Source: Betaproteobacteria bacterium
Lineage (GTDB): Bacteria; Pseudomonadota; Gammaproteobacteria; Burkholderiales; SG8-41
Length of the DNA stretch: 46,708 nt
Direction of reading: 5' to 3'
NCBI GenBank assembly: GCA_947486575.1
Contig: CANKUB010000024.1
Coordinates: 1 to 46,708 of the forward strand
Part shown: positions 1-12,954 of the stretch, in pieces
Layout: every line of letters begins with the position of its first letter
Position numbering within the stretch: the first letter of the stretch is position 1
Position numbers and translations under genes: made by a program
Notes under the pieces: model-generated
What the model was told of the DNA's origin: nothing
Seen by the model: the letters and a program-made list of their open reading frames with translations, nothing else
Database searches by the model: none

Positions 1-308
1 CACAACGTGCAAGAGCCTCATCCGCCCAGTGCGGCAATGGCGACATCCACCTCCTTGGCCATTTCGTCTATCAACGCGTCGGTTGCGGGTTTGGAGTAAT
101 GCTCTTTGCGGCGAATGACCACGCGTGCGACGCCGTATTTTTCGCGCAGGGCAGCACCGAGTGTTTCAAGTATCAGCGTACCTTGTTCCTTGGTATTGTC
201 GAGCAGGCCGACAACTTTTCCTACCAGGTCAGCCGGGCGCGGTGCCAGTGGCACACGTTTGCGGCCTGTACCTGCGGTGGGGTCGATGAAGCCGAGTTCT
301 TCTGTCAT
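1..308 (-). CDS. UGSC-motif family (seleno)protein, C-terminus cut by window edge
   Basis: I chose the ATG at 308 because it has an AGGA element about 8 nt upstream and opens a compact domain (MTEELGFIDPTAG...). The frame runs 96 residues to ...VDVAIAALGG, then meets TGA (codon 97, plus-strand 18-20), and continues G-S-C-T-L to the edge. The Gly-Gly-[U/C]-Gly-Ser-Cys-Thr signature is that of the UGSC family, whose members carry selenocysteine or cysteine at this site. I therefore read the TGA as selenocysteine and the gene as continuing off the window. The first ~95 residues look like an alpha/beta thiol-redox-type fold (DLVGKVVGLLDNTK..., then VARVVIRRKEH). The biochemical role is unknown. 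It is the last visible gene of a minus-strand run behind two tandem paralogues (344-1360, 1388-2422). The alternative is a true stop or a mutated Cys codon. Confidence 0.8.
18..20 (-). other. Probable in-frame UGA selenocysteine codon (Sec97)
   Basis: The minus-strand codons are CTG GGC GGA TGA GGC TCT TGC ACG TTG, giving L-G-G-U-G-S-C-T-L. The family motif falls exactly across the TGA and stays in the same frame beyond it, which an ordinary stop would not predict. A bacterial SECIS hairpin should begin immediately after the UGA and extend about 40 nt. Only 17 nt remain, so the SECIS cannot be judged here. Confidence 0.75.
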
Positions 309-343: not shown

Positions 344-1360
344 TCAAAGCGAGTAAGTACCATGCACGGCACGGCTGCCGCCGCCCCAACCGTGGCACAT
401 GGCGGTGAGCGGCCCCCAGCCCCCGGCGACGATCAGATGCAGATCCCGTGCATCTTTGATGACTGGTACAAAGCGCTCGTCATCATTGGGGTCAATGTTC
501 AGTGCGCGTGCCCGCTCGGGCCGCCAGTTGCCGCCGCCCTTGAGATCACGCACCTTGCGGCCTGCGGTTTTGATCAGCCACGCGTGCACGTCAGCACGCG
601 ACATTCCCGCACGCGAACAAATCGTTGCATGCTCCGGCCCCATCGCCACCACCATGTCCGAGCGTACGTGCTGGTTCCACGAGCACATGGCGCTCATCGA
701 GTCAGCGAGGCCCGTTAACAGGCGCTGCGGATCCTGACTCGCATCGTCGTAACAAAGTCGCGGGCTTTCCACCATGGCGCAGGTGATGGTGTTTTCATCC
801 GGCGTGTGGCCGCGTGCGGCGGCGATGGTTTCCCACGGACTGCGTTCGGTGTTTTCGGTAATGCAGGCGGTGTAGCGCATGGGCGTTGCGAACACCGTGG
901 CCGATGCCACACCCGCAATGCCGCCACCCAGGTTCAACATCATCAGCCGTATCGCACGCCCGATGGTGGCATTGGCACGAAAGCCAGGGCCAAAGCAACC
1001 ATTGCTGCCGTTGATACCGATTTTTTTGGCATAGGGCCCGTTGACGATCATCAGCGGCGCCACGCCATGCATGGTGCCTTGCACGCCGTTCAAATTAAAT
1101 TCTTCACGCAACATCAGTTCAATGCCGCCCAGCACCACCGGCAGATATTCCGGCTTGCAACCCGCCATCACAGCGTGTATCGCCACCGTGCGTACTGTGG
1201 CGGGCTCCATCGCCGGAGGAATGTTGCCGATCAGCTCATCGGGCGTGCTCTTAGTGCCTATGAGCATGCGCGCCACGCGCGCTTCGGTGGGTGTAACCAC
1301 TGGCAGGCCGTCTGACCACTCTTTTTCGAGGAAGAACTCGAATTCATCTACGGCGGGCAT
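344..1360 (-). CDS. Conserved protein of unknown function, paralogue 2, in UGSC operon
   Basis: 338 residues with no signal peptide or membrane segment. I do not know its function. It is strongly similar along its whole length to the product of 1388-2422. Shared blocks are DEFEFFLEK.WSDGLPVVTPTE near the N-terminus, MAGCKPEYLPVVLG (about residues 65-80), LNGVQGTMHG, a Gly/Asn-rich NGCFGPGFRANATIGRA block near 120-135, a Gly-rich NLGGGIAGVAS block near 145, and a C-terminal VAGGWGPLTAMCHGW. The conserved cysteines and Gly-rich turns suggest a metal, cofactor or thiol site. It starts only 28 nt after the previous stop and is followed after 35 nt by the UGSC gene, so the three are probably co-transcribed. 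A tandem duplication beside a UGSC protein suggests that all three act on one substrate; that is inference. Confidence 0.85.
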   Translation of the reverse strand: MPAVDEFEFFLEKEWSDGLPVVTPTEARVARMLIGTKSTPDELIGNIPPAMEPATVRTVAIHAVMAGCKPEYLPVVLGGIELMLREEFNLNGVQGTMHGVAPLMIVNGPYAKKIGINGSNGCFGPGFRANATIGRAIRLMMLNLGGGIAGVASATVFATPMRYTACITENTERSPWETIAAARGHTPDENTITCAMVESPRLCYDDASQDPQRLLTGLADSMSAMCSWNQHVRSDMVVAMGPEHATICSRAGMSRADVHAWLIKTAGRKVRDLKGGGNWRPERARALNIDPNDDERFVPVIKDARDLHLIVAGGWGPLTAMCHGWGGGSRAVHGTYSL

Positions 1361-1392
1361 TCTAAAATACTCTATAAAAACAATTGCTTATG
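1361..1392 (-). repeat. Dispersed AT-rich motif, copy 1
   Basis: On the minus strand this reads ATAAGCAATTGTTTTTATAG followed by AGTATTTTAGA. It fills the whole 27-nt gap between the two paralogues, and its TAA is the stop codon of the upstream gene. It matches the core TAACTAWTTGTTTTTATT found at about ten other places in the window. Confidence 0.5.
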
Positions 1393-2422
1393 ATTGTTCG
1401 GTGGGCGCATCGTAAGTGCCATGCACCGCCTTGCTGCCCCCGCTCCACCCATGACAAATCGCCGTGCAAGGCCCCCAGCCGCCTGCCACGATCAACTGCA
1501 AATCAGCCGGGTCTTTGATTGCGGGAATAAAACAATCGTCGTCATCGGGATTCACTGTGATGGGAAACGCCAGCGCGCGCTCGCGCCGCCAGTTGCCGCC
1601 ACCCTTGAGGTCGCGCACCTTGCGCCCGGCGCGCTGCACCAGCCACGCATGTACATCCGCGCGGCTCATGCCCGCCTTGGCGCAGATCGCCGCATGCTGC
1701 GGCCCCATCGCCACCACCATGTCGGAGCGCGCGTGCATGTTCCATGAACCCATCGCGCACATTGAATCAGCGATGCCGGTGAGCAGGCGCTCCGATTCAT
1801 GTTCCTGACTCACATCGTCAAACGTCTGGCGCGGGCTTTCGACCATCGCGCAGGTAATCACATTGTCTGTAGGTGCGTAGCCCTTCGACACAGATAAAGA
1901 TTCCCACGGGCTGCGCTCAAGGTTCTCGGCGATGCACGCGGTGTAACGCAGTGGCGTGGCAAAAATCGTGGCCGACGCCACACCCGCAATGCCGCCGCCA
2001 AGGTTCATCATCATCAACCGAATCGCGCGGCCTATCGACGCATTGGCGCGAAAGCCCGGGCCAAAGCAACCGTTGCCGCCGTGTATGCCGATCTTCTGCG
2101 CGTACGGCCCGCTGACGATCATCAACGGTGCCGCGCCGTTCATGGTGCCCTGCACGCCGTTCATGTTGAATTCGTCGCGCAGCATCAACTTGAGTGCGCC
2201 CAACACCACCGGCAGATATTCCGGTTTGCAGCCCGCCATCAGCGCGTGTATCGCCACCGTGCGCACGGTGGCAGGTTCCATCATTGGTGGAATATTGCCG
2301 ATCAGTTCATCCGGGTCGCGCGTGGTGCTGGTGAGCATGCGTGCGACGCGTGCTTCGGTGGGCGTGACTACCGGCAGGCCGTCAGACCAGGCTTTTTCTA
2401 GAAAGAATTCGAATTCGTCCAT
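1388..2422 (-). CDS. Conserved protein of unknown function, paralogue 1, in UGSC operon
   Basis: 344 residues from the ATG at 2422. I preferred this to the more upstream in-frame start at 2476 because it aligns with the N-terminus of the neighbouring paralogue (DEFEFFLEKAWSDGLPVV) and avoids overlapping hicB. It carries all the blocks seen in the sister gene: MAGCKPEYLPVVLG, MNGVQGTMNGAAPLMIV, NGCFGPGFRANASIGRA, NLGGGIAGVASAT and GGWGPCTAICHGW. It differs by short insertions (for example around SQEHESERLLTG) and an acidic stretch NPDDDD before the last block. It appears soluble and cytoplasmic. Order on the minus strand is this gene, its paralogue, then the UGSC protein, with short gaps, which looks like a single operon. 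No enzyme motif that I recognise is present. Confidence 0.85.
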   Translation of the reverse strand: MDEFEFFLEKAWSDGLPVVTPTEARVARMLTSTTRDPDELIGNIPPMMEPATVRTVAIHALMAGCKPEYLPVVLGALKLMLRDEFNMNGVQGTMNGAAPLMIVSGPYAQKIGIHGGNGCFGPGFRANASIGRAIRLMMMNLGGGIAGVASATIFATPLRYTACIAENLERSPWESLSVSKGYAPTDNVITCAMVESPRQTFDDVSQEHESERLLTGIADSMCAMGSWNMHARSDMVVAMGPQHAAICAKAGMSRADVHAWLVQRAGRKVRDLKGGGNWRRERALAFPITVNPDDDDCFIPAIKDPADLQLIVAGGWGPCTAICHGWSGGSKAVHGTYDAPTEQS

Positions 2423-2433
2423 GCACGACACGC

Positions 2434-2673
2434 TTACGTGACAGTTTGCATCTTGTTCGCATAGTCGCGGCCACACGTAGCGGGAGGCAGCGGCTTACCA
2501 TCGTGGTGGTAAAGCGCAATGGCGTCCTCAACCACTTGACACAATTGCTCGAAGACGGCTTTTTCGTCCGTGCCGTGGCACCCGCCATAAATCAGGCCGG
2601 GGGAGCTGCCGACAAAGCATTGATCTTCTTCCGACCACTCGACAATTTTTGCGTATCTTGCGGTTTCCATCAT
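2434..2673 (-). CDS. hicB: HicB-family antitoxin (short form)
   Basis: 79 residues starting METARYAKIVEWSEEDQCFVG, then SSPGLIYGGCHGTDEKAVFEQLCQ, the small degenerate RNase-H-like fold of HicB antitoxins, which neutralise HicA by covering its RNA-binding face. It lacks a clear C-terminal helix-turn-helix or ribbon-helix-helix domain, so it is a short HicB that may need other factors for autoregulation. The ATG overlaps the end of hicA (ATGATG; hicA TGA at 2670-2672), so translation is coupled. It ends 12 nt before the ATG of the next minus-strand gene. Confidence 0.8.
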   Translation of the reverse strand: MMETARYAKIVEWSEEDQCFVGSSPGLIYGGCHGTDEKAVFEQLCQVVEDAIALYHHDGKPLPPATCGRDYANKMQTVT

Positions 2674-2867
2674 GATTTTGATTCCTCAACAGCGCGCTTC
2701 ACTGCGCGGACTTGGTATTGCTTCGCATCGTCGCTAGACGTACCTGATATTGTGATCGGTTTTGAGACTCGCGGGTGGACAAAGTTCCGATGGCTGCCTT
2801 TTCCACCACGATTGACAAAACCTGCGTGCTCAAGCTCGGCGATAAGTTCTCTTACTTTTTGAGGCAC
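2670..2867 (-). CDS. hicA: HicA-family mRNA interferase toxin
   Basis: About 65 residues from a GTG at 2867. This start makes the protein begin VPQKVRELIAELEHAGF, the usual HicA N-terminus; a further in-frame GTG at 2900 would add a non-family extension. The dsRBD-like HicA signature is visible: hydrophobic helix, then GKGSHRNFVHP containing the catalytic His (G-S-H), followed by a strand (ITISG) and a C-terminal helix (KQYQVRAVKRAVEES). HicA cleaves mRNA independently of the ribosome. The toxin-first order and 4-nt overlap with hicB are the standard hicAB arrangement. The pair sits alone between the UGSC operon and the FAH gene, all on the same strand. Confidence 0.82.
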   Translation of the reverse strand: MPQKVRELIAELEHAGFVNRGGKGSHRNFVHPRVSKPITISGTSSDDAKQYQVRAVKRAVEESKS

Positions 2868-2912
2868 GAATTTATGCCTGAATATTTTTTCGCATAACAC
2901 TCGCGGTAAAGG

Positions 2913-2983: not shown

Positions 2984-3895
2984 TCAAACCCCCTGCACCA
3001 CAGAATTCTCCAACACCCCCACACAATCCAGTTCAACCCGCACCTTATCCCCAGGCTTCAAGAAAATCCCACGCGGGCGCCCCACACCCGACGGCGTGCC
3101 AGTAGCAATCACATCCCCCGGCAACAAGGTCATGCGCCGACTCAAATACTCAATCAATTCGGCGATGTTGAAAATCAATTGGTCCACCAGCGTGTCCTGC
3201 ATTTTTTCCTGATTCACCCAAAGCTGCAATCGGCATTTATAAATATCCGGTACTTCGTCGGCGGGGGTAATCCACGGGCCCATCGGGGCGGCGGTTTCAA
3301 AATTTTTGTGACCGAACCAATCGATGTTCCAGCGCGGCCAGTCGGGGCGGCGTGACAGGTCGCGCGCGGAGACGTCGTTCATGATGGTATAGCCCGCGAC
3401 GTATTGCATCGCATCCGCCACGCTTACATTGCGTGCGCGTTTGCCGATGACCAATGCGCACTCGGCTTCCCAATCGACTTTCTTTGAGGTATTGGGCAGA
3501 TGAATCGCGTCGCCGGGGCCGATCATGCAGTGCTGTGGCGCTTTGAGAAACAGATACGGTTGGGTGGTGGCTTTATCGACGCCCGCGCCCTCGGCGGACA
3601 TTTCTTCGGCGTGCGCCATGTAGTTGGCGCCAGTGCAGTAAATCGCGGGCGGATACAGTATCGGCGGCAACAGTTTTACGGCTGCCAGCGGCTTTTGCGT
3701 GCTGGGTGGATTGTCGGCGAGTGCGTGCAGCGCAGGGCACGCTTCATCCCATGCATTCAACGCGGCGAGCGTTGATACGCTCCATGATTTGTCGGGCAAT
3801 GCGTCGCGCAGATCAACGATGGTTGCGCCGCCCACCAGAATGCCCGCGCGCGGGCCATCAGCACCTTGGTAATTCAATAAGCGAAAAGAAGCCAT
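2984..3895 (-). CDS. Fumarylacetoacetate hydrolase (FAH) family protein
   Basis: 303 residues. A short N-terminal domain (MASFRLLNYQG...GATIVDLRDAL) precedes the FAH/MhpD-like mixed-beta-roll domain from about residue 75. Family landmarks are the metal-site region VDWEAECALVIGKRARNV (E..E), YTIMNDVSARDLSRR, KNFETAAPMGPWI and the C-terminal GDVIATGTPSGVG. Members hydrolyse or decarboxylate acylpyruvates and related beta-diketo acids using Mg/Mn in aromatic or sugar-acid catabolism. The exact substrate cannot be told from sequence. The gene is divergent from the Bug receptor at 4050, and the two could share a regulatory region; that would link uptake and breakdown of one organic acid, but this is inference. 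Confidence 0.9.
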   Translation of the reverse strand: MASFRLLNYQGADGPRAGILVGGATIVDLRDALPDKSWSVSTLAALNAWDEACPALHALADNPPSTQKPLAAVKLLPPILYPPAIYCTGANYMAHAEEMSAEGAGVDKATTQPYLFLKAPQHCMIGPGDAIHLPNTSKKVDWEAECALVIGKRARNVSVADAMQYVAGYTIMNDVSARDLSRRPDWPRWNIDWFGHKNFETAAPMGPWITPADEVPDIYKCRLQLWVNQEKMQDTLVDQLIFNIAELIEYLSRRMTLLPGDVIATGTPSGVGRPRGIFLKPGDKVRVELDCVGVLENSVVQGV

Positions 3896-10798: not shown

Positions 10799-12571
10799 AT
10801 GGTAACCAAACTGAAAGAAGTCGATGCTGTCATCGTGGGCCTCGGCTGGACCGGCGGCATACTCGCCAAAGAGTTGACGCAGGCCGGGCTGAAGGTGGTG
10901 GCGCTTGAGCGCGGCGTGAATCGCAGCACAGCCGAAGATTACGCCGTGCCGGGCGTGCGTGACGAGCTGCGCTTTGTGCATCGCCACGATCTGATGCAGA
11001 ACACCTCGCGCGACACGCTGACCGTGCGCAACAACATCAAACAGGAAGCGTTGCCGATGCGGCGGCTGGGTTCGTTTTTGCCTGGCGATGGCGTGGGCGG
11101 CTCCGGCGTACACTGGAGCGGCCACACCTGGCGCTGGACGGATAATGAATTCAAAATACGTTCCTTATACGAGGAGCGCCACGGCAAGAATTACATTCCT
11201 GACGACATGACGATTCAGGATTGGGGCATCACCTATGCCGAGCTTGAGCCGTATTACGACAAATTTGAATACACCGCAGCCGTATCAGGCAAGGCGGGCA
11301 ACATCAAGGGCGTGATTCAGCCCGGCGGCAATGTATTTGAAGCGCCGCGCGCACGCGAGTATGCACTGCCCGCGTTGAAAACCATTCTGGCGAGCCAGAT
11401 GTTCAACGATACCGCGAAAAACATGGGCTATCACCCGTTTCCGCGGCCCAGCGCGAATGCGTCGCAGGCGTATACCAACCCGGACGGATCGAAGTTCGGC
11501 GCGTGCCAGTATTGCGGCTTTTGCCAGCGCTTCGGCTGCGAGGCCAACGCCAAAGGCAGCGCGCACATCACGGTGATACCGATTGCCATGGCCAGCCCGA
11601 ATTTTGAGTTGCGCACCAATGCGTGGGTAACTAAAATTTTGAAAGACCCCGCCAGCAAGCGCGTCACCGGTGTGCTGTATACCAACTTGCTCAACGGCGA
11701 GGAGTACGAGCAACCGGCGAGCATGGTGCTGCTTACGGCCTATGCGATTAATAACGTGCATCTGATGCTGCTGTCAGGTATCGGCGAGCCGTACGATCCG
11801 GTCAGTCAAAAAGGCGTCATCGGCAAAAATTATTGTTATCAAACAGGTGTCGGTGCGAACCTCTTTTTCGACGGCAGAAACTTTAATCCGTTCATGTCGG
11901 CGGGCGGCTCGAACCACACCATCGACGATTTCAACGCCAACTGGGGCTTTGATCGCGGCCCGCACGGTTATGTCGGCGGCTTTACCATCGGCGCGGGATT
12001 TAATACGTCGTTGCCGATTGGCAACCGGCCGGTGCCGAGCGGCACGCCGCAGTGGGGCACCGCGTGGAAAGCTGCGCAAGCGAAGAGCTATCAAACCTCG
12101 ATGAATATCGGCGCCAGCGGCAGCGTGATGGCCAATCGTTACAACTACTTTGATCTTGACCCCACCTACAAAAATGCGTTCGGCCAGCCGTTGATGCGCA
12201 TGACTTTTGATTACAAGCCGAATGAGCACAAGATGGGCGTTCTCGCGGCGAAACTGGTGAATGACATAGCCGCAGCGATGAATCCCCTCTCGTTCAATCG
12301 TGCTACGTCGCGCGAAAGCTGGACGGTGGTGCCGTATCAGAGCACGCACAACACCGGCGGCACCATCATGGGCGTCAACCCCAAGGTCAGCGCGCTGAAC
12401 CGGTACTTGCAGAATTGGGATTATCACAATCTGTTTGTGGTGGGGGCGAACGTGTTCCCGCACAACGGCTCGTATAACCCGACCGGCCCGGTGGGCGCGC
12501 TCGCGTACTGGACTGCCGATGCGATTAAAAATCGGTATATGAAAAATCCTGGACCTTTGGTTCAAGCATAG
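10799..12571 (+). CDS. GMC-family FAD dehydrogenase large subunit 2
   Basis: 590 residues. The ATG at 10799 is chosen because it has a GGGGGAAG ribosome site and aligns with the first residues of the paralogues (KLKEVDAVIVGLGWTGG). In-frame sequence further upstream lies inside the previous gene. It is nearly colinear with subunit 1, with the same FAD motif, GDGVGGSGVHWSG, CQYCGFCQRFGC cluster and STHNTGGTIMGVNP end. Differences concentrate in substrate-side segments, for example GAGFNTSLPIG and the HTIDDFNANWGFDRG region, so it may accept a different substrate. It is 43 nt behind subunit 1 and 11 nt before the cytochrome c gene, hence probably in the same operon. Confidence 0.92.
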   Translation: MVTKLKEVDAVIVGLGWTGGILAKELTQAGLKVVALERGVNRSTAEDYAVPGVRDELRFVHRHDLMQNTSRDTLTVRNNIKQEALPMRRLGSFLPGDGVGGSGVHWSGHTWRWTDNEFKIRSLYEERHGKNYIPDDMTIQDWGITYAELEPYYDKFEYTAAVSGKAGNIKGVIQPGGNVFEAPRAREYALPALKTILASQMFNDTAKNMGYHPFPRPSANASQAYTNPDGSKFGACQYCGFCQRFGCEANAKGSAHITVIPIAMASPNFELRTNAWVTKILKDPASKRVTGVLYTNLLNGEEYEQPASMVLLTAYAINNVHLMLLSGIGEPYDPVSQKGVIGKNYCYQTGVGANLFFDGRNFNPFMSAGGSNHTIDDFNANWGFDRGPHGYVGGFTIGAGFNTSLPIGNRPVPSGTPQWGTAWKAAQAKSYQTSMNIGASGSVMANRYNYFDLDPTYKNAFGQPLMRMTFDYKPNEHKMGVLAAKLVNDIAAAMNPLSFNRATSRESWTVVPYQSTHNTGGTIMGVNPKVSALNRYLQNWDYHNLFVVGANVFPHNGSYNPTGPVGALAYWTADAIKNRYMKNPGPLVQA

Positions 12572-12582
12572 GGAGAACAAAT

Positions 12583-12954
12583 ATGAAAACATTGATTCAA
12601 GGTTTGGTTGCCGTTGCACTGGTTAACGGTGGTGCGGCATTTGCACAAGACGCAACGCGCGGCGAAAAATTGTTCAACGAGTGTGCGGCGTGCCACTCGC
12701 CCGATCGCGCAGCGAAAGACACCGTTGGCCCGTCGCTGCATGGTGTGGTCGGGCGCAAGGCGGGCGAAGGCACGGAATTTCGTTACTCGCCGGCGATGAA
12801 GCGCAGCGGTATTACCTGGAGTTCGGATACGCTTAACTCTTTTATTAGTGATCCGCAGAAACTCGTGCCGGGCAATCGCATGCCGTACTCCGGTTTGCCG
12901 GAAGCGAAAGATCGCGCCGACTTAATCGCCTATCTACAGGCAACCATGAAGTAA
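12583..12954 (+). CDS. Class I monohaem cytochrome c (c2-like), dehydrogenase electron acceptor
   Basis: 123 residues with a Sec signal peptide ending AAFAQ. The haem motif CAACH is at 34-38, with TVGPSLHGVVGRKAG after it and the Met axial ligand in NRMPYSG (M100), the pattern of cytochrome c2/c550. It has a GGAG ribosome site. Family gluconate and fructose dehydrogenases usually use a triheme membrane cytochrome; here the cluster supplies a small soluble monohaem protein. It likely takes electrons from the GMC subunits and delivers them to a terminal oxidase. It sits between the second and third flavoprotein genes. Confidence 0.93.
   Translation: MKTLIQGLVAVALVNGGAAFAQDATRGEKLFNECAACHSPDRAAKDTVGPSLHGVVGRKAGEGTEFRYSPAMKRSGITWSSDTLNSFISDPQKLVPGNRMPYSGLPEAKDRADLIAYLQATMK

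Follow-up and report, generated by a model that had tools for sequence, protein, structure and literature searches.

UGSC genes with in-frame UGA codons: an expanded family and its near-constant partner protein in Betaproteobacteria

The UGSC family has appeared in lists as a selenoprotein of unknown role since the time of the metagenome surveys. It corresponds to the profiles PF24696 and NF041046 (the "UGSC-containing protein" of the GOS selenoproteome, PMC2398784), its members carry either selenocysteine (Sec) or Cys at the motif, and a fusion of UGSC to a domain designated Unknown_1 was already reported in 2008 (PMC2398784). Among >5200 bacterial genomes covered by one survey, 26 organisms accounted for 33 UGSC selenoproteins (PMC5029168). 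The systems of described chemistry with which we compare the family here are the glycine, sarcosine, betaine and D-proline reductases, each of which combines a Sec subunit with a partner; in systems of the GrdE/PrdA type that partner is a pyruvoyl subunit. The betaine reductase GrdHI, a Sec enzyme, takes its electrons from TrxA and TrxB, and the gene clusters for this reductase include trxA, trxB and selA (PMC8547467). Bacteria with many Sec codons are also on record, and the largest total selenoproteomes named in a 2026 review are those of the Olavius algarvensis Delta 1 symbiont (57 selenoprotein genes) and of a Methylomirabilota MAG (63 genes) (PMC13188914).

The window analysed for the current report is a stretch of 46,708 nucleotides that makes up the entire contig C24 (CANKUB010000024.1) of a betaproteobacterial assembly, referred to below as the source genome (GCA_947486575.1; 5.35 Mb, 282 contigs, 98% complete). 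Its left edge carries a new member of this already known selenoprotein family. The minus-strand translation from 308 to 3 is MTEELGFIDPTAG...AALGG*GSCTL (N-terminus MTEELGFIDP; the asterisk marks the stop). The features of this end of the window are as follows.

3..308, minus strand: 5' part of a UGSC-family gene, almost certainly for a selenoprotein, with an ATG start at 308 and truncated by the contig end; PF24696, 75.4 bits
18..20, minus strand: TGA, almost certainly read as selenocysteine (the U of U-G-S-C), in the same column in 17/17 copies of the source genome
344..1360, minus strand: gene for the partner protein PART, 338 aa, with a MAGC motif, directly upstream of the UGSC gene and in the same direction; no Pfam family
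1388..2422, minus strand: second, tandem PART copy with an ATG start at about 2422, 77-78% identical to the first
2434-2673, minus strand: short frame overlapping the HicA gene, its partner; no Pfam model at E 0.001
2670-2900, minus strand: HicA-type toxin gene (PF07927, 42 bits), flanked by the tandem PART genes on one side and the fumarylacetoacetate hydrolase gene on the other
2984..3895, minus strand: fumarylacetoacetate hydrolase family gene of the cluster around the pair, PF01557, 236 bits
4038..5000, plus strand: gene for a TctC-type solute-binding protein, a common neighbour of UGSC and PART, PF03401, 237 bits
5121..6047, minus strand: amidohydrolase 2 family gene of the same cluster, PF04909, 181 bits

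The PF24696 match lies in the part of the frame before the stop (cut-off 25; residues 8-95 on profile positions 3-91 of 172). Against NF041046 the window gene scores 46.8 bits, under the full-length cut-off of 125, as is to be expected of half a protein; an intact paralogue of the source genome (L032) scores 138. The stop in the frame is a TGA at 20..18, and the U/C-G-S-C motif is in register with it, as GG-U-GSCTL at 26..3 of the minus strand (residue 95 in the first row of our UGSC alignment). An earlier sequence-only reading of the window had claimed that a TGA interrupts a UGSC-family frame precisely at GG-[U/C]-GSCT, and that the window ends 17 nt past the stop with the C-terminus and SECIS outside it, and both of these claims held. 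Since the window is the whole contig, the gene cannot be extended leftward within this assembly, and the 3' half of this copy is missing together with any SECIS.

The same reading had taken the apparent stop for a Sec codon. The window by itself cannot rule out a pseudogene in which the TGA is a true stop, or a reassignment of TGA in the organism, as the frame ends 17 nt later; the genome and its relatives leave almost no room for either. The source genome holds 17 UGSC genes above the Pfam cut-off, each with a single in-frame TGA, and when these are aligned the TGA always falls in one column; the next residue is an invariant G, and a Cys stands three residues on. One in-frame TGA at the same column in 17 of 17 family members excludes chance. 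(An 18th match, on contig C195, is below the cut-off and without a TGA, and was set aside as what appears to be an unrelated FAD protein.) The Sec machinery is present as selA (579 bits), selB (456 bits), selC (77.7 bits) and selD (426 bits), the selD gene itself carrying an in-frame TGA (Sec-type selD). All 14 genomes of the genus, the source included, show DNA matches to positions 1-1360 of the window, and seven genus-mate loci that reach the UGA (L273-L277, L282 and L283) all read on past it as GSCTLCSVHD...; the frame in genus-mates stays open for 79 codons. Five of these read-throughs were found by a sequence pattern, and L276 and L283 needed a looser one. The N-terminal part is identical to that of the window gene at 88-93 of 96 residues in the four loci counted among L273-L277 and at 57 of 96 in the more distant L282; L283, also more distant, was not counted. 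Cys-containing UGSC homologues have their Cys in the column of the UGA. Reassignment of TGA can be rejected, in that TGA ends ordinary genes of the source genome, namely 5 of 17 PART and 16 of 41 TctC profile matches (two of these 16 run off their locus). A genome lacking the sel genes, or the lack of a conserved frame past the TGA, had been named beforehand as grounds for refutation, and neither was met with. That a TGA in a family match does not alone prove Sec is seen from another genome, G284, where the TGA lies away from the motif and the motif itself reads CGSC. With the hairpin described below added to these observations, the window gene is almost certainly one of 17 UGSC selenoprotein genes of the source genome, its Sec status resting on sequence, with no selenium labelling.

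When the 57 nt after the UGA were folded, 15 of the 16 further copies in the source genome gave a stem with its loop ~24 nt downstream of the UGA; the remaining copy (on contig C153) has no stem at the usual place, its stem lying elsewhere. Five genus-mates were also folded; all five contain the stem sequence, but it gives the fold of lowest energy only in three of them (L275, L277 and L282), another stem being more stable in L273 and L274. Selection on this stretch was assessed with a synonymous-recoding test in which the protein is kept and replacement codons follow the usage pooled over the genes tested. Over nt 9-38 past the UGA the mean z was -2.00 for the 16 copies of the source genome, -1.98 for 53 of a relative, G014, and -2.71 for 83 named MAG loci (z below -1.5 at 75%, 79% and 94% of sites, respectively), while a control stretch gave -0.45, 0.06 and -0.08; the median hairpin apex was at 23.5 nt. 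Plain codon shuffling of the 57-nt pieces gave a weaker signal, with only 5 of the 16 copies of the source genome below -1.5. Among 11 copies that share one register the stem pairs in 96.6% of cells, with two-sided changes at 2 of 8 pairs, and the covariation score was reached by none of 500 shuffles, although related rows may beat shuffles without any structure, as the tool itself warns. A hairpin of this kind was also obtained on folding the UGA-bearing plasmid copies of Acidovorax T1 and Paracoccus ferrooxidans. At the level of the family, a hairpin after the UGA is thus likely to be selected beyond protein coding; the window copy is too short to show one.

What the sequence-only reading had missed is that the window gene is one of 17 copies, and that it is half of a two-gene system whose other half adjoins it at 344-1360. 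We use PART as a working name for this unnamed protein of ~340 aa, which we take to be, presumably, the Unknown_1 of the GOS fusion, and which has no Pfam family match up to E 1. The set of two PART genes and a UGSC gene recurs in the one-contig genome G195. In a profile search limited to UGSC hits of at least 100 bits with at least 1.5 kb on either side, PART was next to UGSC, both on one strand, for 86 of the 87 cases that could be tested (the exception is L037), with UGSC first in 82 pairs and PART first in 4. Fused UGSC-PART frames, sought in that order only, number 60 (one listed twice) for 141 UGSC hits. A draw of 299 Pseudomonadota genomes, in which only part of the candidates was scored per genome and copy numbers are lower bounds, gave UGSC in 5 and PART in the identical 5; one of these is the source genome, and the other four have UGA in the motif (two genomes), Cys (one) or, in G284, CGSC with the TGA elsewhere. 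Plasmid records yielded 12 UGSC and 24 PART matches. Both proteins were detected by profile in all 14 regions examined, with a weak, motif-less UGSC-like domain in those of Sporomusa and Vibrio; the motif carries Sec in the Acidovorax and two Paracoccus records, and Cys in four haloarchaeal records, Arthrobacter, Embleya, Roseovarius and two Variovorax records. The pair thus extends to haloarchaea, Actinomycetota and other Proteobacteria. Conservation was counted without repeats and only over rows with at least 250 (PART) or 130 (UGSC) aligned residues. Of 202 distinct PART rows, 200 retain the Cys of MAGC, and all retain G104, G130, R131 and E165 (model positions); 191 of 193 UGSC rows have U or Cys at the motif, and 191 have the second Cys. 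The pairing of UGSC with PART, adjacent or fused, is near-constant.

Several further observations concern individual members. A side branch fused to PART lacks the Sec or Cys altogether (L246 and L248 of G014, L316 of Sporomusa and L318 of Vibrio), with the motifs CNAGIT, GDMGT and ADMGT, and the motif-less fusions of Sporomusa and Vibrio lie near aconitase X and DUF126 genes. Locus L309, on plasmid p2-T1 of Acidovorax sp. T1 (typed as conjugative IncP), has a UGA-containing UGSC gene and PART between IS elements on one side and aroA on the other. Locus L099 (Baikal-deep-G113, titled Dehalococcoidia) has a UGSC-PART pair whose UGSC part is 73% identical to a betaproteobacterial query, which might reflect either transfer or wrong binning.

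These bacteria carry unusually many UGSC genes per genome. All 36 searched genomes of the same bacterial family, the source included, carry UGSC, with at least 2 to 48 matches each (the copy numbers of this survey are lower bounds); outside the family but within the order, 3 of 24 genomes carry it (1, 19 and 6 matches). The largest set is that of G014 (5.7 Mb, 98% complete, 2% contamination), for which the survey gave 48 matches and the scoring of all candidates 58. Stops were counted over the matched stretch only: in 51 of the 58 a single TGA is the sole stop, 3 show an additional TAG or TAA, and 4 show none; one of the 51, near a contig end, covers only profile positions 76-171. A custom UGSC profile likewise gave 58 hits in G014, of which 54 hold U (one taken for a partial repeat fetch, two with an extra TAA or TAG), 56 adjoin PART and 37 are fused to it. 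The median pairwise identity of the G014 copies is 26%, after hits covering fewer than 60 model positions and repeats were dropped, and only one pair exceeds 80%, which we take to be one gene fetched twice, without having checked it. A mixed-strain assembly can be rejected as the cause of the copy number, as the copies of the source genome are 19-61% identical to the first copy; a subset of their C-terminal halves is at most 69% identical to the first row. In a tree of copies from the source genome and G014 the two sets interleave (15 changes for 16 rows, 8 of them forced by well-supported branches), which means that the paralogues either arose before the two genera separated or were passed between them; 398 of 500 shuffles were equally low, and the bootstrap has not settled. 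The totals of the Olavius symbiont and the Methylomirabilota MAG span all selenoprotein families, whereas in G014 one family alone accounts for 51. No report of UGSC copy number was found in the open-licence literature searched (for Betaproteobacterial, paralogous and expanded selenoproteins), and prior mention elsewhere is not excluded. The related contigs are titled mostly as MAGs of Betaproteobacteria or Burkholderiales, and their sample names point to lakes, groundwater and soil; several titled Bordetella parapertussis we take to be mislabelled MAGs. Counts over the 80 named loci are not independent, as these are close relatives, the best 80 of 576.

Clues to function were sought in the gene neighbourhoods, two of the surveys having scanned 20 of 46 called frames. 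Between 4083 and 42013 of the 46.7-kb window there are twelve TctC-type profile hits, a number of which are to partial frames. In the source genome 11 of the 32 genes counted as the two nearest neighbours of UGSC are TctC genes, compared with 23 of 148 background genes (p 0.017), and in the named loci 64 of 155 neighbours are; the enrichment is modest, TctC genes being common throughout the source genome. Other neighbours of UGSC and PART include TRAP and ABC receptors, CoA transferases, lyases, RraA and PEP-mutase-like enzymes. EPSP-synthase genes were also seen to recur near UGSC (8 of 140 neighbours scanned, plus L309 at 11431-12744, PF00275), several of these loci sharing a spacing that may mark one orthologous gene set.

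A second group of neighbours bears on electron supply. Between selB and selC of the source genome lies a gene for a thioredoxin reductase (TrxR)-like protein (303 aa, CADCDG; 230 bits to TIGR01292, under the cut-off), and fused UGSC-PART genes flank this sel locus on both sides. G195 has the order TrxR-like (CAHCDG), UGSC, PART, PART, and the annotated orders are trxB-trxA-PART-UGSC in Arthrobacter, PART-UGSC-trxB in Roseovarius and trxB-TctC-SDR-PART-UGSC in Variovorax SRS16; V. boronicumulans has a TrxR-sized flavoprotein without CxxC, followed by TctC and a fused UGSC-PART gene. In Paracoccus ferrooxidans the pair has selA and selB no more than 8 kb away, on either side, and in G316 these two genes adjoin it. 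A trxB gene is annotated in 3 of 12 annotated plasmid regions, with none seen in the haloarchaeal ones, and a TrxR with CxxC was found in 3 of 5 chromosomal regions (L041, L293 and L295, in the last of these ~2.7 kb from PART) but not in L292 or L294. A search of the collected loci with the TrxR of the source genome found such a gene in no UGSC region beyond its own sel locus, G195 and G198.

Such neighbours, taken with the U-x-x-C motif, might be read as signs of a thiol-disulfide oxidoreductase or peroxidase for stress defence with redundant paralogues, and the GOS paper calls UGSC likely Trx-like, with a general redox role (PMC2398784). We consider this explanation unlikely. In an AlphaFold2 model of a fused UGSC-PART protein (pLDDT 87.7, pTM 0.88) the UGSC domain is predicted to be doubly wound a/b, of the flavodoxin type, with the Sec position (93) between a strand at 85-91 and a helix at 94-109; VIA-align gave Z 9.3-10.8 to receiver, cobalamin-binding and flavodoxin-type domains among other a/b proteins. 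The Trx fold was accordingly rejected as the default for UGSC, folds absent from the match list not being excluded. A flavodoxin-like fold, as predicted here, is a common one and tells no function. The near-constant pairing with a partner of 340 aa, the transport and CoA-transfer neighbours, and the more than 50 diverged copies (at that 26% median identity) are also better suited to substrate specialisation than to defence.

Other structural and sequence searches contributed little. PART alone (model pLDDT 86.2) gave no fold match: the best Foldseek E was 0.32, and the best Z, 6.0 to a RidA-like chain over 87 residues, was counted as no match. For the fused model Foldseek returned four hits at E 0.001 or below (to FtsZ and a glycosidase), with TM-scores under 0.27, which were not used, and a sequence search of the PDB with UGSC, fused and PrdB-like queries produced nothing credible (best E 0.022, adenosylhomocysteinase).

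A possible link to the Sec subunits of the reductases introduced above came from profile comparison. By hhalign, UGSC matches GrdB/PrdB-like selenoproteins of the same bacterial family at Prob 78 and E 1.8e-5, with Sec on Sec (the known GrdB/GrdF/GrdH and PrdB proteins, PF07355 and TIGR04483, have UGTC or UPNC in place of UGSC), compared with E 0.2-0.3 for reversed controls. Other UGSC alignments gave Prob 71 (A1) and Prob 14, E 0.0019 (A4, fused), and masking of the conserved Cys columns lowered the match to E 0.004, Prob 8; the low masked and fused-alignment scores mean that much of the signal is the U/CxxC motif itself. A GrdF-like protein matches NF041046 at E 0.006. PF07355 itself is not matched, either by the UGSC half in the window, which gives only PF24696 up to E 1, or by the full fused protein, for which PF24696 is the sole Pfam match up to E 0.1. 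Remote homology of UGSC to GrdB/PrdB is therefore a possible lead and no proof. PART shows no likeness to GrdB/PrdB in alignment, and the pyruvoyl partner of the GrdE/PrdA type was not met with, given that PART has no Pfam match, though no direct comparison with GrdE/PrdA profiles was made. Unlike GrdB/PrdB, UGSC has another, unnamed partner family and many paralogues per genome, and its carriers include lake and groundwater MAGs (judged by sample name) and haloarchaea. From UGSC as described in the GOS data the present set differs in its 17 Sec copies in the source genome and 51 uninterrupted ones in a relative, its near-constant PART, a predicted fold that is flavodoxin-like rather than Trx-like, and its recurrent TrxR and solute-binding neighbours.

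The same bacteria were seen to possess a second Sec family, PrdB-like, with the motif V-U-P-N-C (733-1962, minus strand, of L053 on contig C244 of the source genome; L164-L186); PF07355 is matched in 20 of 30 genomes of the family, and locus L163 of G014 has a full GrdF/GrdB-like gene with STUGTCTRC.

On balance we lean, by a narrow margin, towards a reading in which UGSC and PART form a thioredoxin-fed, Sec- or Cys-dependent reductase of imported organic acids that by analogy would act like GrdB/PrdB while lying outside that family; the reaction, the electron path and the substrates are all inferred, without an assay. That the two proteins would be subunits of one enzyme is inferred from their adjacency in 86 of the 87 testable cases, the fused frames, their co-occurrence in the same 5 of 299 genomes and the wide taxonomic range of the pairing. 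The reductase part is drawn from the recurrent TrxR, trxA, trxB and TctC neighbours, the likeness to GrdB/PrdB and the supply of betaine reductase by TrxA and TrxB. In this scheme PART would bind an imported organic acid or its CoA or enol derivative, and the selenolate (or thiolate) of the UGSC U-x-x-C would attack the bound acid in a two-electron reductive step. A selenenyl-sulfide would then form between U and the Cys three residues on, or the near-invariant Cys of the PART MAGC, and would be re-reduced by thioredoxin or a TrxR-like flavoprotein at the cost of NADPH. Substrates would vary between the paralogues, as would the gene sets around them, in which a TctC receptor is often the neighbour. 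Apart from the different partner, the scheme would parallel the action of the Sec subunits in the glycine, sarcosine, betaine and D-proline reductases. Against it stand the presence of TrxR near UGSC in only part of the regions, a GrdB/PrdB signal much of which is U/CxxC, and the unmatched fold of PART; and the existence of the Sec/Cys-less side branch means that some members cannot use the redox step.

That side branch could also be cited in favour of a lyase, isomerase or transferase, in which the selenolate would be a covalent nucleophile that thioredoxin merely keeps reduced. Support for such an enzyme might further be drawn from neighbours that include CoA ester lyases, RraA, PEP-mutase/isocitrate-lyase-like proteins, phosphosulfolactate synthase and EPSP synthase, and from the invariant Arg and Glu and near-invariant Asn of PART. 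We nevertheless regard this alternative as improbable, in that 191 of 193 rows retain the second Cys of UxxC, as would suit a redox couple, and TrxR neighbours recur.

If the reductase reading is preferred, a bolder form of it can be stated, in which UGSC-PART would join the glycine-type and D-proline reductases as a third class of selenoenzyme reductase with two subunits and a thioredoxin supply, expanded by one family of uncultured freshwater Betaproteobacteria into a substrate-specific catabolic toolkit. We hold this form tentatively and would not at present bet on it. The expansion, the near-constant partner and the reductase context set the window gene above an ordinary member of the family.

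In the annotation of the Acidovorax T1 plasmid the UGSC gene is entered as a short hypothetical protein that stops at the UGA, and in that of Paracoccus ferrooxidans it is split into two fragments; as gene callers cut UGSC genes at the UGA in this way, such enzymes are likely to be under-counted. With a partner, TrxR neighbours and named carriers (Arthrobacter, Roseovarius, Variovorax, Paracoccus and haloarchaea) at hand, the chemistry of UGSC becomes testable. The copy numbers suggest a lineage that uses Sec as a bulk catabolic tool and, if the bolder reading is true, the supply of selenium would set the range of organic acids usable by such a bacterium, with at least 51 Sec codons of one family in one genome.
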